A DNA stretch of 64,000 nucleotides. Source: Marinobacter halotolerans. GTDB taxonomy: Bacteria > Pseudomonadota > Gammaproteobacteria > Pseudomonadales > Oleiphilaceae. The stretch is from NCBI RefSeq assembly GCF_008795985.1, contig NZ_VMHP01000002.1:434001-498000 (forward strand), in the 5' to 3' direction. The position numbers and the translations under genes are program-made. This document shows, piece by piece, positions 445-37,086 of the stretch (the stretch's first letter is position 1; each line of letters starts with the position of its first letter). A model generated the notes under the pieces. The model made no database searches. It saw nothing but the letters and a program-made list of their open reading frames with translations, and was not told the DNA's origin.

Positions 445-1179
445 ATGACATTGGCGAAAGAACTTGGAATCTACAAGAGAACCGGAAACGGCGGCCCTTC
501 AGCGCTTGTTGAGGAGCACGCACCTCTGGTCAAGAAAATTGCCCTTCACCTGATGGCCCGTCTGCCTCCCTCGGTTCAACTGGAAGATCTGATGCAGGCC
601 GGCATGATGGGTCTGCTGGAAGCCTCCCAGCGATATACGTCTACCAAGGGCGCCACCTTTGAGACCTACGCCGGCATTCGCATCCGTGGTGCCATGGTGG
701 ACGAGATCCGCAAAGGCGACTGGGTTCCCCGTTCGGTCCACCGTAATGCCCGCCGTATTTCCAGTGCCATCAAGGTTGTCGAGGACCGTCTAGGTCGCGA
801 AGCCCAGGACTGGGAAGTGGCGGAAGAGATGGGGCTTGATATTAATGACTATTACGCCGGGCTGAGTGATGCCAACAGCGGACGACTTTTTAGTCTTGAT
901 GAGCTCAATGAATCCGGCGACCTGCCGATAGACGAACAGAACGTGGGCGATAACCCGCTTGAAGGTCTGGCTTCGGCGAAATTCAAATCCAGCCTGGCGG
1001 GCGCGATTGATGATCTGCCTGAACGCGAGAAACTGGTGTTGAGCCTGTATTACCAGGAAGAGCTCAACCTTAAAGAAATTGGTGCGGTACTCGGTGTAAG
1101 CGAAAGCCGCGTCAGCCAGATCCACAGCCAGGCGGCGTTACGCTTGCGCGGGCGGCTCGCAGACTGGCATCAGAAATAA
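445..1179 (+). CDS. fliA: Flagellar sigma factor sigma-28 (FliA)
   Basis: This 244-residue protein is the usual length for FliA, the RNA polymerase sigma factor for late flagellar and chemotaxis genes. Region 2 is visible as the GAMVDEIRKGDWVPRSV segment (about residues 83-97). Region 4 ends with a helix-turn-helix, LNLKEIGAVLGVSESRVSQ, which reads the -35 element. It follows fleN by 30 nt and precedes cheY by 98 nt. Its likely targets in this window are two GCCGATAA-containing promoters, at 7351-7377 and 35460-35486. FliA is normally held inactive by FlgM, which is not encoded here. Confidence 0.97.
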   Translation: MTLAKELGIYKRTGNGGPSALVEEHAPLVKKIALHLMARLPPSVQLEDLMQAGMMGLLEASQRYTSTKGATFETYAGIRIRGAMVDEIRKGDWVPRSVHRNARRISSAIKVVEDRLGREAQDWEVAEEMGLDINDYYAGLSDANSGRLFSLDELNESGDLPIDEQNVGDNPLEGLASAKFKSSLAGAIDDLPEREKLVLSLYYQEELNLKEIGAVLGVSESRVSQIHSQAALRLRGRLADWHQK

Positions 1180-7350: not shown

Positions 7351-7377
7351 TCAAGTTGGGCGGATGACAGCCGATAA
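7351..7377 (+). promoter_or_regulatory. Sigma-28 (FliA) promoter for the parA/cheW module
   Basis: TCAAGTTG at 7351-7358, 11 nt, then GCCGATAA at 7370-7377. The flagellar sigma consensus is TAAAGTTT-N11-GCCGATAA, so the -10 part matches fully and the -35 part at 6 of 8 positions. It sits in the motD-parA gap, 51 nt before the GTG at 7429. FliA itself is encoded at 445-1179. Confidence 0.8.
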
Positions 7378-8197
7378 TTCTTTGTATGTTCCGGTTGTTC
7401 CGGAGCGAATCATTCCGGGGAGTAGACTGTGCGGATCTGGGCTGTAGCCAATCAGAAAGGTGGTGTGGGTAAAACAACTTCTGTGGTCGCACTGGGCGGA
7501 CTGCTGGCCGAGCGTGGTAAACGGGTACTGGTGGTCGATCTTGATCCCCACGGGTCCCTGACCAGCTGGTTCGGCCACGACCCCGACACCATCAGCCACA
7601 GTGTGTTTGATCTGTTCCAGTATCAGGGCAAGGTGCCGGAAGGCCTGCCTGCACAACTCATCACTGACACCAGTTGCGAGGGCCTGTCCCTGTTGCCGGC
7701 CAGCACGGCGCTGGCAACACTGGAGCGGAAGATGGTGGGCGTTGAGGGAATGGGGCTGATCATATCCCGCGCGCTGGCCCAGCTGTGGGATGACTTTGAC
7801 TATGTATTGCTGGACAACACGCCGTCGCTTGGCGTGCTGATGGTGAATGCGCTGGCAGCGGCACAGCACCTGATTATTCCGGTGCAGACCGAGTTCCTCG
7901 CGATCAAGGGTCTTGAGAGAATGCTCCATACCCTTGAGATGATCATGCGTTCCCAGAAAAATCCGCTGTCCTATACCATTGTGCCGACACTTTTTGACCG
8001 TCGGACTCAGGCCTCGATGAAAAGTCTGAATCAGCTTCGCAAGAGCTATCCGGACAGTCTCTGGCGTTTTGCCATTCCTGTGGATACCCGATTCCGCGAT
8101 GCCAGCCAGGCGGGAGTTACGCCGTCTGCCTTTGACTCCGAAACCCATGGAGTGCGCGCGTACGCCCGCCTGCTTAATGATCTGACGGAGGCGGCCA

Positions 8198-8977
<780 letters not shown>

Positions 8978-9008
8978 TCCGATTGATTGCCGGCAGCGCC
9001 CTGCGCTA

Positions 9009-9037
9009 CTGGCACGGTTTGTGCCCTGAACTATAGT
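9009..9037 (+). promoter_or_regulatory. Candidate promoter for cheW, sigma-70 or sigma-54 type, overlapping a small palindrome
   Basis: Two readings overlap. CTGGCA (9009-9014), 17 nt, TATAGT (9032-9037) fits a sigma-70 promoter with 4/6 and 5/6 matches. TGGCACG-N4-GTGC (9010-9024) has the GG-N10-GC core of a sigma-54 promoter, with one mismatch to TGGCACG-N4-TTGC. The same bases form GGCAC-ggttt-GTGCC, a short hairpin. The site is 69-97 nt before the cheW start. Confidence 0.4.
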
Positions 9038-9105
9038 AATGGGCGCTGATGATGTTTTTTTGACGATCAGGTTGCCCGCCGGGCAGCCGTACAGGAGAGA
9101 AGGTT

Positions 9106-9594
9106 ATGGCATCCGCGAGCGGACAACAGAATCAGGCTCATGATGATCAGGTACTGCAGTACGTGACCTTCAGGCTGGATGATGAAACCTACGGCATTGA
9201 CGTAATGCAGATCCAGGAAGTGTTGCGGTACACCGAGATTGCCCCCGTGCCTGGTGCGCCGGATTACGTGCTTGGCATTATCAATCTGCGGGGCAATGTT
9301 GTAACGGTTATCGATACCCGGCGGCGCTTCGGGCTGGCAGACGCCGAAGTGACGGATTCCACACGCATCGTGGTGATGGAATCGTCCAACCAGGTCATGG
9401 GTATTCTGGTGGATTCAGTGGCCGAGGTGGTTTACCTCAAGGCCAGTGAGATCGAGACCGCACCGAACGTGGGTAACGAGGAAAGTGCCAAGTTCATCCA
9501 GGGTGTGTGTAACAAGAACGGCGAACTGATCATTCTGGTTGAGTTCGACAAGATGCTGTCAGACCACGAGTGGGCTGAAATTTCCGGACTGTAA
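9106..9594 (+). CDS. cheW: Chemotaxis coupling protein CheW
   Basis: 162 residues spanning one CheW domain: YVTFRLDDETYGIDVMQIQEV at about 17-37, PGAPDYVLGIINLRGNVVTVIDTR near 48-71, and MGILVDSVAEVV near 98-109. It bridges receptors and CheA P5 in the array. The ATG is preceded by AGGAGAGAAGG. A 128-nt gap with a possible promoter separates it from the PE-repeat adaptor upstream. This makes two CheW-domain proteins in a row, as in pseudomonads. Confidence 0.95.
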   Translation: MASASGQQNQAHDDQVLQYVTFRLDDETYGIDVMQIQEVLRYTEIAPVPGAPDYVLGIINLRGNVVTVIDTRRRFGLADAEVTDSTRIVVMESSNQVMGILVDSVAEVVYLKASEIETAPNVGNEESAKFIQGVCNKNGELIILVEFDKMLSDHEWAEISGL

Positions 9595-9663
9595 GAAGGG
9601 CCTGAGGGCCTGACCAGACCGAAGATGGACGTCCCCGTGGTTCCACAAACGAGGACGTTCGTA

Positions 9664-10056
9664 ATGACTGAAATTCTGATTTCACAGGCTCCCTGGCTGC
9701 TGACCGCTGCCATTCTCTGCCTGATGTTTGCCCAGGCCGTGTTCGCCCGCCGACAGATTGGCAAGCTGCGCGCGGAGATGAAACAGCGGTGTGAAGACCT
9801 GGGGCGCGAGCTCCACGCAACGGCCAGCGGCAGTATGGGCATTGGCCAGCGGGTGGTTGGCTGCGAACGCCAGTTGCACGAACTGCGCGGTACACTGGAC
9901 GAAATGCGCCAGAATGACCCCCTGCGGATTTCCTATGATGAAGCTTCCCGCCTGGTGGACCTGGGTGCGGATATCGACGATCTGATGAACACCTGTGGTA
10001 TTTCCCGACCGGAAGCGGAACTTGTGTCGGCCCTGCGCAAACGTCAGGTCGCCTGA
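9664..10056 (+). CDS. DUF2802 membrane-anchored protein of the chemotaxis/flagellar cluster
   Basis: 130 residues from the ATG at 9664, which has GAGGA at 9651-9655 eight nt upstream; an upstream in-frame start at 9625 lacks such a site. One N-terminal membrane segment (WLLTAAILCLMFAQAVFA, about 11-28) is followed by a charged, probably coiled-coil stretch (about 32-85). The end is a small helical motif, SYDEASRLVDLGADIDDLMNTCGISRPEAELVSAL, that resembles a DNA-binding-like helix-turn-helix of the DUF2802 family. The function is unknown. The gene regularly follows cheW in related genomes, which suggests a role near the polar array or flagellum. Confidence 0.75.
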   Translation: MTEILISQAPWLLTAAILCLMFAQAVFARRQIGKLRAEMKQRCEDLGRELHATASGSMGIGQRVVGCERQLHELRGTLDEMRQNDPLRISYDEASRLVDLGADIDDLMNTCGISRPEAELVSALRKRQVA

Positions 10057-33575: not shown

Positions 33576-34727
33576 ATGTCCGATGAAATGCTCCATATTG
33601 CCGGCCTGGGCCTGGCTTTGAAACGCCCGGGGGACGGCGCCAACTATCTGCGTGGATGGGATGCCGCTGATGAACTCCTGCTTGAACACGCCAGTGAGCA
33701 GATTGCTGGCCGGCCTGACCAGAGGGTACTGGTCGTGGATGACCAGTTTGGAGCACTGACGCTCGGGCTTGGTCGACTGTTTCCGGAAATTTCACTGGTC
33801 AGTTTGGCGGACAACGCAACTCTTGCGACGGCCCTCCAGCTCAATAGCGCCTCTATGGCGCCCGTCGCAGGGCCTGCAAGCTGGCTGGAGCCTCCCCTAC
33901 AAACCTTTGATCTGGTCGTTCTGCGAATTCCACGCCAGGCGGACTACCTGGCCTGGGTGCTTCGCTGGTGCAACCAGGTATTGGGTCCGGACGGGGTGAT
34001 CATCGCCGGTGGGATGATCAAACATCTGCCGGACCAGAGTTCAAAGGTATTTGCTGAACTTGTGAATACCCGGATGGTGTCCCGGGCGTGGAAAAAAGCC
34101 CGGGTAACGGTCTCAACACCGGGAGACAGCACATTGGAGAGCTGGAACGCCCAGTGGCAGGGCTACGACCTGCCGGAAAGTGGCGTTCGCGTGGACGCTC
34201 TGCCAGCGGTGTTCTCCCGGCGCAAGCTGGATATCGGTACCCGTGAACTACTGCCGGCCATGGGAAATCGGGTTGTCGATTTGCCCGCCGGCAGCCGTCT
34301 GCTGGATCTGGCCTGCGGCAACGGGGTGCTTGGTCTGGCAGCGCTGTCACTGTGTCAGGATCTGGAGGTGATCTTCTCGGACGTGTCCAGCCAGGCCGTG
34401 CTCAGCGCCCGACACAACGTCGGACGGGCGTTCCCTCAGGCGCTGACCCGTTTTGTTCACTGTGACGGCATGCCGCCGGGCACCGCAGAGTTTGATCTGA
34501 TCCTGCTCAACCCGCCATTCCACGAGGGCGGTGTGGTGGGGGACCATATTGCCCTGACCCTGTTCCGGCAGGCGGCGGCACGGCTTGCGCCGGGCGGGCG
34601 TGTGCTGGTGGTGGGTAACCGTCACTTGGGCTATCACCGGAGCCTGAAAACGTCCTTCTCTCTGGTCAGACAGCTGGCCTCAAGTCCGAAATTTGTGGTA
34701 TTCGAGGCTGGCCATCAGCCCCCGTAG
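33576..34727 (+). CDS. rlmG: 23S rRNA (guanine-N2) methyltransferase RlmG-like
   Basis: 383 residues, close to the 378 of E. coli RlmG. N-terminal inactive methyltransferase-like half and C-terminal catalytic half with LLDLACGNGVLGLAAL (about 244-259) and LLNPPFHEGG; the ending VVGNRHLGYHRSLKTSF matches the RlmG branch, which makes m2G1835 in 23S rRNA. It is a paralogue of the rsmC product just upstream. A perfect TATAAT (33482-33487) lies 88 nt before the start, without a good -35. The 3' end overlaps the convergent ribE by 13 nt. Confidence 0.87.
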   Translation: MSDEMLHIAGLGLALKRPGDGANYLRGWDAADELLLEHASEQIAGRPDQRVLVVDDQFGALTLGLGRLFPEISLVSLADNATLATALQLNSASMAPVAGPASWLEPPLQTFDLVVLRIPRQADYLAWVLRWCNQVLGPDGVIIAGGMIKHLPDQSSKVFAELVNTRMVSRAWKKARVTVSTPGDSTLESWNAQWQGYDLPESGVRVDALPAVFSRRKLDIGTRELLPAMGNRVVDLPAGSRLLDLACGNGVLGLAALSLCQDLEVIFSDVSSQAVLSARHNVGRAFPQALTRFVHCDGMPPGTAEFDLILLNPPFHEGGVVGDHIALTLFRQAAARLAPGGRVLVVGNRHLGYHRSLKTSFSLVRQLASSPKFVVFEAGHQPP

Positions 34728-35320
34728 CCAAGGCGGGCCAGGGTATCCACGATTGTCTGTGTCTGACTGTCTATCTCGATATTGACCTGGTCGGCCAGGG
34801 CAATGTCAGCAAACGTTGTGGCTCGCAGAGTTTCCGGAATCAGGTGAATGTTGAACCGGTTGCCCGTGACCTCACCGATAGTAAGGCTCGCCCCGTTGAT
34901 CGCAATATAGCCTTTGGGAAAAATATACTTCGTCCACTGTTCGGGCACTTCGAAGGTGAGGGTGCAGTTGTTCTCTGGCCGGTCGATGGCGACGACTTCA
35001 GCGGTGGTGTGAACATGGCCGGACAGCAGGTGGCCGCCAATTTCGTCGCCGATGCGGGCCGCCCGTTCGAAGTTGATCCGGTCGCCAGGGGTGAGCGCAC
35101 CCAGCGTTGTCAGCCTCAGGGTTTCCTGCATGGCGTCGAAAAACAACAGATCGTTTTCCTGGCGGGTCACCGTCAAACAGGTGCCGTCAATGGAAACGGA
35201 GGCACCGATGGTGACCCCCTGAACCCGGTCGGCGGGAAACCGGATGGCGAAACTGCTGAGCCCGGGCGCTGCGTCAATGTCTTCAACCACGGCAACGCCC
35301 TGAACAATACCTGTAAACAT
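34715..35320 (-). CDS. ribE: Riboflavin synthase, alpha chain
   Basis: 201 residues forming two similar lumazine-binding barrels: MFTGIVQGVAVVEDID at the start, IGASVSIDGTCLTVT near 38-52, then the second repeat with LSGHVHTTAEVVAI near 98-111 and IAINGASLTIGEVTGN near 137-152. It converts two 6,7-dimethyl-8-ribityllumazines to riboflavin and its precursor. It stands alone: no ribBA, ribD or ribH is next to it, and no FMN riboswitch is visible upstream. It converges with rlmG with a 13-nt overlap. Confidence 0.95.
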   Translation of the reverse strand: MFTGIVQGVAVVEDIDAAPGLSSFAIRFPADRVQGVTIGASVSIDGTCLTVTRQENDLLFFDAMQETLRLTTLGALTPGDRINFERAARIGDEIGGHLLSGHVHTTAEVVAIDRPENNCTLTFEVPEQWTKYIFPKGYIAINGASLTIGEVTGNRFNIHLIPETLRATTFADIALADQVNIEIDSQTQTIVDTLARLGYGG

Positions 35321-35459
35321 GCTTGGCCCTCATACGCTGGTTCTGGCTCCGGCCGGTTTTCCGGAACGGATTGCAAAGAGAAAAAGGATACCGACAGGGC
35401 ATCGCCCTGCCAAGCAGGGTTCGCGCGCGGTCGTGCGGCGCGGATGTGCTATCCGACGT

Positions 35460-35486
35460 TCAAGTAACGGCGGATCAGGCCGATAA
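35460..35486 (+). promoter_or_regulatory. Sigma-28-type promoter upstream of an unrecognised membrane protein
   Basis: TCAAGTAA (35460-35467), 11 nt, GCCGATAA (35479-35486). The -10 part is perfect, and the -35 part shares TCAAGT and exact spacing with the promoter before the parA/cheW module. The A of the ATG at 35494 is eight nt beyond, about where transcription should begin, so the mRNA would be leaderless. Confidence 0.6.
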
Positions 35487-35493
35487 TACGTTC

Positions 35494-36348
35494 ATGGCAG
35501 AAATCAGACGTTCGCAGACCACAAAACCGGAACCGACCCCCGATGAGCCGCTGCTTCGTCAGGGCCGGCCTGCGGACCCTGTGCCAGCAGAAAAGCCGCC
35601 AGAGTCGAAGAACAAGGCGGCTGAGCCCGGTTCAGAGCCTGAGACTGCGGAAACGACGGAGACTGCCTCAGCCGAGCCGGGCAGTTCGAGGGCCGGCATT
35701 GAGAAAACGATTGCCGAATCCCGCCAGAAAAAGTTACGTCTGCTGCTGCGGCAATGCGACCGCGTAATGCTGATGGATTTCGATATTCTTGCCATGTCTG
35801 ACTGGCCCGACAACTACTCCCTCGCCGTGGCCCGGCGCAGCCGTGATCTCTGGCTATTCTGTTCCCTGCTGGCGGCCCTGGTGTTTTTAAGCGGTATGAC
35901 GGGTTTTGTGCCGGCCTGGATTGCCGGTGGCGGTTTCGGCGCTTTCGTCATTCTTCTGTTGTCTGGCCTGCCTGCGGTGCGGGGGTTGGTGACCAGCAGG
36001 CCTTCCTACCTTGATCTGGTTATTCAGCGGCGACGGATGCTGCAGGATGCGCGGAAGCATATTCAGCACCTTGAGGGCAAAGAGGGGCTGGCCTGGCAAT
36101 GTGCCCAGATGGTGGAGTTCAATACGGCCCTGCGGGCGATGCGATTCAGCGAACTGGTAGCGCTCTCGGAGCGGAGAGTGCTGGCGAAACACCTGACCCG
36201 GCGCGAGCATGTCCGGCTGTATCTGATCTACCTGCTGGAGGCTGAAAAAGCCTATCTGCGGGCGGAAAAGGCGTTTTTTGAAGGGCACCAGAAGGCCTTG
36301 GACAACGGTTGGGCGCCGGCCCCCTCCAGCCCGGAGCAGAGTGCTTGA
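35494..36348 (+). CDS. Unrecognised two-helix membrane protein
   Basis: 284 residues from ATG 35494. No ribosome site precedes it; a possible sigma-28 promoter lies 7 nt upstream. The first 75 residues are Pro/Glu/Lys/Ser-rich and probably unstructured. A helical stretch (about 76-115) leads to a membrane hairpin: WLFCSLLAALVFLSGMTGFV and AWIAGGGFGAFVILLLSGLPAV (about 120-165). The C-terminal 110 residues are charged and probably coiled-coil (LVIQRRRMLQDARKHIQHLEGK; LEAEKAYLRAEKAFFEGHQKAL). The frame continues upstream to 35323, but that part does not look like protein. No family recognised. It ends inside the -35 box of psrA. Confidence 0.72.
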   Translation: MAEIRRSQTTKPEPTPDEPLLRQGRPADPVPAEKPPESKNKAAEPGSEPETAETTETASAEPGSSRAGIEKTIAESRQKKLRLLLRQCDRVMLMDFDILAMSDWPDNYSLAVARRSRDLWLFCSLLAALVFLSGMTGFVPAWIAGGGFGAFVILLLSGLPAVRGLVTSRPSYLDLVIQRRRMLQDARKHIQHLEGKEGLAWQCAQMVEFNTALRAMRFSELVALSERRVLAKHLTRREHVRLYLIYLLEAEKAYLRAEKAFFEGHQKALDNGWAPAPSSPEQSA

Positions 36349-36373
36349 CAGAATGACCTATCAAACGTATGTT
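36345..36373 (+). promoter_or_regulatory. psrA promoter
   Basis: TTGACA (36345-36350), 17 nt, TATGTT (36368-36373). The -35 hexamer is perfect and contains the stop codon of the upstream gene (TGA at 36346-36348). The -10 hexamer lies inside the first PsrA operator. Confidence 0.75.
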
Positions 36374-36408: not shown

Positions 36409-37086
36409 ATGGCTCAGTCAGATACAGTTGACCGGATACTGGATGCCGCGGAAGAACTCTTTGCGGAACGCGGATTTTCGGAAACTTCCCTTCGCATGAT
36501 TACCAGTAAGGCTAAAGTAAATCTGGCCGCTGTCAATTATCACTTCGGATCCAAGAATGCCCTGATCCATGCGGTTTTCGCCCGCTTCCTGACGCCGTTT
36601 TCCGCCACTCTGGAAGACGCGTTCAACGATCTGGAAACCCGATGCGACGGACAGCCACCGACCCTGAATCAGACGCTGTGGGCGCTGACGGAAAGTGCGG
36701 TGCGAATGCCCCAGCGCAACGAGAATGGTATTTCCATTTTCATGCGCCTGCTGGGCCTTGCCTATACCCAGTCCCAGGGGCACCTGCGACGTTTTCTTGA
36801 GCAGGAGTACAGCCAGCCATTCAGCCGCTTCATGCGGTTGCTGAAAGAATCCACGCCTCAATTGTCGGCGGTTGATCGTTACTGGCGGATCCAGTTCATG
36901 CTGGGGGCCACGGCCTTTACCATGTCCAGCAGCGACGCGCTTCGGGACATCCTGCAGAACAAATTGGGGGTGGAAACCACCGTGCAGGAAATCGCCGCCC
37001 GCCTGGTGCCGTTCTTGGCGGCCGGCATGCAGGCTGAGGACCCGATGCTGATGATGCCCTCTGCCGGTAAATCCTCGGTTGCCTGA
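36409..37086 (+). CDS. psrA: TetR-family fatty-acid-responsive regulator PsrA
   Basis: 225 residues from ATG 36409. N-terminal helix-turn-helix ETSLRMITSKAKVNLAAVNYHFGSK (about 24-48) is close to PsrA of Pseudomonas, which represses itself and the beta-oxidation genes and activates rpoS, released by long-chain fatty acids. The C-terminal part is the helical ligand domain. Two PsrA boxes on its own promoter support the assignment. Unlike P. aeruginosa, no lexA follows; an L,D-transpeptidase-type gene comes next. Confidence 0.88.
   Translation: MAQSDTVDRILDAAEELFAERGFSETSLRMITSKAKVNLAAVNYHFGSKNALIHAVFARFLTPFSATLEDAFNDLETRCDGQPPTLNQTLWALTESAVRMPQRNENGISIFMRLLGLAYTQSQGHLRRFLEQEYSQPFSRFMRLLKESTPQLSAVDRYWRIQFMLGATAFTMSSSDALRDILQNKLGVETTVQEIAARLVPFLAAGMQAEDPMLMMPSAGKSSVA

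Follow-up and report, generated by a model that had tools for sequence, protein, structure and literature searches.

What is a gene with a FliA-type promoter doing next to psrA rather than among flagellar genes? The window analyzed here, a stretch of 64,000 nucleotides of the Marinobacter halotolerans genome, raises this question with a gene for a protein of 284 residues that lies between the vitamin gene ribE and the fatty-acid regulator gene psrA and belongs to no known family (Table 1). Although flagella are regarded as well catalogued, all FlgI-positive Marinobacter genomes tested (111/111) carry this gene, and it is lost with FlgI. Its promoter and its distribution make it very probable that the protein is a component of the swimming machinery that has been overlooked.

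Table 1. Features of the locus and related features of the window (positions within the window)
Feature	Position	Strand	Remarks
fliA, sigma-28	445..1179	+	PRK06986, TIGR02479; encoded in the same window
Same promoter, before the parC-like ATPase gene	7351..7377	+	exact match
parC-like ATPase, Pro/Glu-rich CheW-domain protein (parP-like), cheW and DUF2802 (fipA-like) genes	7429..10056	+	
ribE, riboflavin synthase	34715..35320	-	syntenic neighbor
Sigma-70-like promoter on the ribE side	35385..35413	-	
FliA (sigma-28) type promoter, TCAAGT-N13-GCCGATAA	35460..35486	+	exact match; conserved upstream of orthologues
ATG start	35494..35496	+	predicted +1 on its A (box column 34)
CDS of 284 aa; product predicted to be an undescribed inner-membrane protein in the flagellar regulon	35494..36348	+	
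Conserved linear motif LRxGRxADP, residues 21-29	35554..35580	+	in the disordered tail
Membrane hairpin, residues about 119-162	35848..35979	+	hydropathy; helices in the model; Arg-rich flanks
Compact all-helical C-terminal domain, residues 172-270	36007..36303	+	block pLDDT 93-98
Sigma-70-like promoter before psrA	36345..36373	+	overlaps the 3' end of the gene
psrA, TetR-family gene	36409..37086	+	syntenic neighbor; strong match in 10/11 genomes examined

The promoter box and the genes behind it

A preliminary description of this DNA had claimed that the box before the gene is identical to the one before the parC-like gene, and both indeed read TCAAGT-N13-GCCGATAA with equal spacing. When up to three mismatches are allowed, the window contains seven matches, two of them exact, versus 3.43 expected, and the 3.78-Mb genome has no further exact match with N12-15 (the reversed pattern gives one). 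A wider form of the box, TMAAG-N14-GYCGWTA, has nine sites in the same genome and eight in the reversed control. Since these counts are so close to the control, a single genome shows little beyond chance, and it is conservation in relatives that does. A further likeness, a GCGGAT said to occupy the same part of both spacers, did not survive: its two copies are offset by one base, and the hexamer is found in 0/72 spacers of orthologues and in 4/26 of parC. The resemblance to the FliA consensus was borne out, as the window box is close to TAAAGTTT-N11-GCCGATAA, with the same spacing, in the form quoted in an excerpt of PMC7286023. The FliA sites of Escherichia coli at flgKL and fliL likewise consist of TCAAG and GCCGATAA, spaced as here, and in cells without FliA the expression of flgKL decreases only partly and that of fliL not at all (excerpts of PMC4183435).

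The regions upstream of orthologues, to which the preliminary description had pointed, do have a conserved box. We gathered 75 loci from named genomes (73 from Marinobacter, one from Mangrovitalea, and one from a MAG labelled Halomonas), of which 74 were used for the counts, L138 being left out because its contig begins at the gene. TMAAG-N14-GYCGATA scores 11-12 of 12 upstream of 69/74 orthologues, the number being 69/74 with revised starts as well; both controls in the same upstream regions stay below this, with at most 10 of 12 for the reversed box and 11 once for the opposite strand. Lower scores belong to L134, L136, and L137 (10 of 12) and to Mangrovitalea (L204, 9 of 12), while those of L194 in the first count and of L202 in the revised-start count (otherwise 11) stem from the placement of the start. 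At 72 of the 75 loci (L138, L194, and L204 left out), the TCAAG and GYCGATA columns hold 1.5-2.0 bits (0.87 at the Y position), the columns adjoining the two elements 0.3-1.0, and those farther away mostly less than 0.25, in an alignment anchored on the best box, which favors the box columns.

Two further genera of the family retain the box (12 and 13 of 14 in L127 and L128). The distant homologues L129, L130, and L131, which come from two other families and share 27% identity (alignment A3), reach at best 8-9 of 14, which amounts to no box, and also lack the conserved motif of the protein's tail, although their genomes carry FlgI. The protein family would then be older than FliA control or not always tied to it, and the FliA link, as far as documented, is confined to the family to which the window belongs. 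The neighborhood of these three homologues is unlike that of Marinobacter, and they adjoin a divergent small-protein gene with a pattern like DGxPxxLKLDTxxGDSWFF.

Five of the nine sites in the genome precede the genes for flagellin (MALGINTN), FlgM (identified by TIGR03824 and PF04316), the parC-like protein, a chemoreceptor-like protein (PDC sensor and HAMP domains; its start is 256 nt downstream of the site, and the examined locus ends before its C-terminus), and the gene under study. Three others fall within longer reading frames, including that of an acyltransferase. The box of parC scores 11-12 of 12 in 26/26 relatives, the reversed control reaching 11 once; the parP-like CheW-domain protein encoded behind it (8198-8977) has a long run of Pro-Glu repeats. 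The genus has two types of flagellin (L063-L092), encoded divergently in this genome, and the FliA-type box is found only at the ALGINTN type, where TAAAG-N14-GCCGTTAA occurs in 8/8 loci, versus 0/22 at that score for the other type, which may hence use another sigma factor. One more site (L053, G000 C2:342135-342160, minus strand) reads TAAAG-N14-GCCGATA and stands before a 94-residue protein without a family, divergent from a protease-like gene (ATP-dependent, by eye) and followed by a PilZ gene; this is possibly another unnamed FliA gene.

Judged by these comparisons of sequence, the box at 35460-35486 is very probably a FliA (sigma-28) promoter, and there are strong indications that FliA-RNA polymerase would transcribe the gene from it.

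Start codon and leader

The start codon is supported by an N-terminus that is conserved in alignments A1 and A2. The ATG had been placed eight bases after the -10 element and described as having no ribosome site; seven bases lie between, A35494 being the eighth, and the longest match to the anti-Shine-Dalgarno (anti-SD) sequence in the 18 nt before the ATG is of 3 nt. Weak SD sequences are common in the orthologues too (3 nt in 48/74). Eight bases past the -10 element, 64/72 orthologue boxes have a purine (45 A and 19 G, versus 8 T); this column is the probable +1. The mRNA of the window gene would in that case probably be leaderless, with transcription starting on the A of the AUG. Two other species, Marinobacter sp. 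CHS3-4 (L133) and M. confluentis (L132), likewise have a predicted leader of 0, and together with the window's species they form one clade (support 100/100). The predicted leader measures 20-118 nt in the other 70 orthologues that have a box. The leaderless mRNA of the preliminary description is thus plausible for the window and its two sister species, but it is not a general property of the orthologues.

It is possible, albeit unlikely, that the window mRNA does have a leader on which ribosomes load, owing to a second promoter upstream or to initiation that slips by some bases. Start positions can shift by one or two bases, and leaders of 20-118 nt are predicted in 70/72 orthologues with the box. 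Besides, in four further orthologues (L134, L136, L137, and L139), the predicted +1 coincides with an ATG that is not the conserved start. This ATG would extend the protein in frame by 15 or 21 residues in M. nitratireducens (L139) and M. lipolyticus (L134), and an in-frame stop follows it in L136 and L137, so that an ATG in this place may go unused. Arguments against a leader are the purine at the predicted +1 in 64/72 boxes, the coincidence of that column with the A of the gene's AUG throughout the three-species clade, the lack of an SD sequence, and a search of the plus strand from 35200 to 35494 that found no other promoter of the sigma-70 type. With a leaderless mRNA as the preferred reading, the clade provides natural species pairs with and without a leader behind the same kind of promoter, which makes it well suited for asking if, and in what way, such an mRNA is translated; if true, a leaderless sigma-28 mRNA would join late flagellar timing to ribosome loading without a leader.

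Presence of the gene and of the flagellum

We searched 124 genomes of the genus with the protein profile A1 and for FlgI, used as a proxy for the flagellum. A1 had a match in 115 genomes and FlgI in 111, and none of the FlgI-positive genomes was without the A1 match, imperfect copies among them being those of G081 (one in-frame TGA) and of G088, G136, G008, and G106 (in two pieces). Nine of the 13 FlgI-negative genomes lack the gene, one (G141) has a broken remnant, and three have the gene (G121, G078, and G079); these three are only 58, 82, and 83% complete, and flagellin is present in G078 and G079. In the good-quality set (110 genomes with completeness of at least 90% and contamination of at most 5%), the gene is found in 103/103 FlgI-positive genomes and is intact in 0/7 FlgI-negative ones.

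The genes ribE and psrA remain neighbors in nine genomes that lack FlgI and have a strong psrA match. Counted from the start of ribE, psrA is 120-123 bp away in six of these genomes, 104 bp in G143, and 197 bp in G068 (for comparison, the distance is 1241 bp in the FlgI-positive G081); in G141 (L093), the distance is 311 bp, with a degraded C-terminal remnant of the gene in between. The gaps between ribE and psrA differ in size among the four lineages without an intact gene. Where the gene is deleted, the promoter stretch on the psrA side is still visible.

A tree of psrA-ykuD DNA with 49 rows (two FlgI-negative ones, G124 and G126, are from genomes 82 and 88% complete) groups the six genomes with 120-123 bp in one clade and requires four changes, as does a tree of 84 rows. 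These changes are read as losses because the outgroup genera carry the gene. All four independent pairs in the 49-row tree change together with FlgI (sign test, p = 0.125, the lowest value attainable with four pairs). The parC orthologue is absent from the four FlgI-negative genomes tested, where the best identity is 34-35%, versus 82-90% in 26 others. With FlgI standing for the flagellum, the gene appears to be present only together with a flagellar system and to have been lost together with FlgI.

The protein, its proposed role, and known systems

The protein had no match among Pfam, NCBIfam, or PDB sequences, a structure search against the PDB returned no convincing fold match, and among 369 sampled genomes of the class, only two weak partial matches turned up besides its own genome. 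A Pfam search of 63 members with E values up to 0.1 matched six families, DUF2802 not among them; no MCP signalling or CheW-like domain was found by Pfam, nor by NCBIfam (three proteins), and the family searches detected no catalytic or c-di-GMP-binding family. The titles and abstracts among the literature matches listed mention neither this protein nor a map of Marinobacter transcription starts.

In the full-length AlphaFold2 model (mean pLDDT 80, pTM 0.68), residues 1-60 are disordered, a helix spans residues 63-87, and the hydrophobic stretch, which hydropathy divides into two segments (about 119-139 and 141-162), is also helical. As predictions, the disordered N-terminus and the membrane hairpin of the preliminary description are both upheld, but in place of its C-terminal coiled coil the model shows rather a compact all-helical domain, which modelled alone gives a pLDDT of 88.5 and a pTM of 0.75. 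The Arg-rich segments that border the hairpin on either outer side suggest that both ends of the protein are cytoplasmic. Within the tail, L[RHQN]xGRxAD is present in 62/63 members, while neighboring tail positions are mostly 15-40% identical; a motif fixed amid a variable tail usually marks a partner-binding peptide. Invariant residues are scattered over the helices and the membrane hairpin. The predicted product would be an inner-membrane protein with a long flexible tail bearing LRxGRxADP, a short membrane hairpin, and a rigid helical domain, both ends facing the cytoplasm.

Three lines of evidence favor the earlier proposal that the gene belongs to the flagellar regulon: the FliA box upstream of the orthologues, its presence in the same genome before the genes for flagellin, FlgM, ParC, and the chemoreceptor-like protein, and the loss of the gene with FlgI in four lineages. 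FliA genes are made after the hook-basal body is complete. Since such genes are late and this one is dropped with the flagellum, the protein most likely acts on the assembled organelle, and we consider it likely that the gene is part of the late flagellar cascade, transcribed by FliA, and that its product is an inner-membrane protein with such a role. The product is best read as a lineage-specific accessory protein of the late flagellar class, hitherto undescribed and with its anchor in the inner membrane. More tentatively, it may be a membrane-anchored adaptor, the peptide in its tail holding a cytoplasmic partner of motility or chemotaxis beside the motor or the receptor array. A still bolder reading, and one we would call doubtful as a whole, is that of a new flagellar accessory family, carried by all FlgI-positive Marinobacter genomes tested, that tethers a partner through LRxGRxADP and is leaderless in one clade. 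In any case, a single gene with a single promoter and a single short tail motif makes a ready target.

It is rather improbable that the protein, while controlled by FliA, acts beside swimming, in surface sensing, adhesion, or a c-di-GMP output coupled to the flagellum. Genes of this kind can be under FliA, such as bifA in Pseudomonas putida (excerpt of PMC5300878), another box of the genome (L053) lies near a PilZ gene, and the co-loss data fit any flagellum-dependent task; the lack of a detectable catalytic or c-di-GMP-binding family and the dispersal of the invariant residues argue against it, neither being a strong point. It is very improbable that the box matches a FliA promoter by chance and that the protein works with psrA and ribE in lipid or envelope metabolism, as the genomic neighborhood and the near-control number of sites in the genome might suggest, because the box is conserved in orthologues, the neighbors are retained where the gene is lost with FlgI, and they have promoter-like sites of their own.

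The late accessory gene proposed here resembles the FliA (sigma-28) late flagellar genes of gammaproteobacteria in the sequence and spacing of its promoter, in the genomic company of the box, and in being tied to FlgI. It differs from them in its position between ribE and psrA and in having no known protein family, and also because the gene with its FliA box was found here only in one family and the mRNA is predicted to be leaderless in one clade. ParP (PMC5706961) is a further system for comparison: the parP-like protein of the window shares a Pro/Glu-rich stretch with the 284-residue protein and is encoded in an operon behind the same box, but it has a CheW-like domain, which the 284-residue protein lacks.

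FipA, a small protein for polar flagella with a DUF2802 domain, provides a membrane-anchored cytoplasmic platform, as ours might, but it has a single N-terminal membrane span and DUF2802, and the 284-residue protein has neither (excerpts of PMC11620751). Identity with FipA was rejected, since DUF2802 is missing from the protein and a separate DUF2802 gene is located at 9625-10056. MotV and MotW of Vibrio cholerae, compared by description only, are HubP-dependent polar proteins, and the targeting of MotW needs its transmembrane and periplasmic parts (excerpts of PMC8789113); in our protein, unlike MotW, both ends are predicted to be cytoplasmic. It shares with them the predicted attachment to the membrane and the occurrence in a subset of flagellated bacteria, and like MotV and MotW, which affect motility once the flagellum has been built, it would act at that late stage. 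By analogy, its putative role as an adaptor may be likened to that of the lineage-specific motility membrane proteins MotV, MotW, and FipA.
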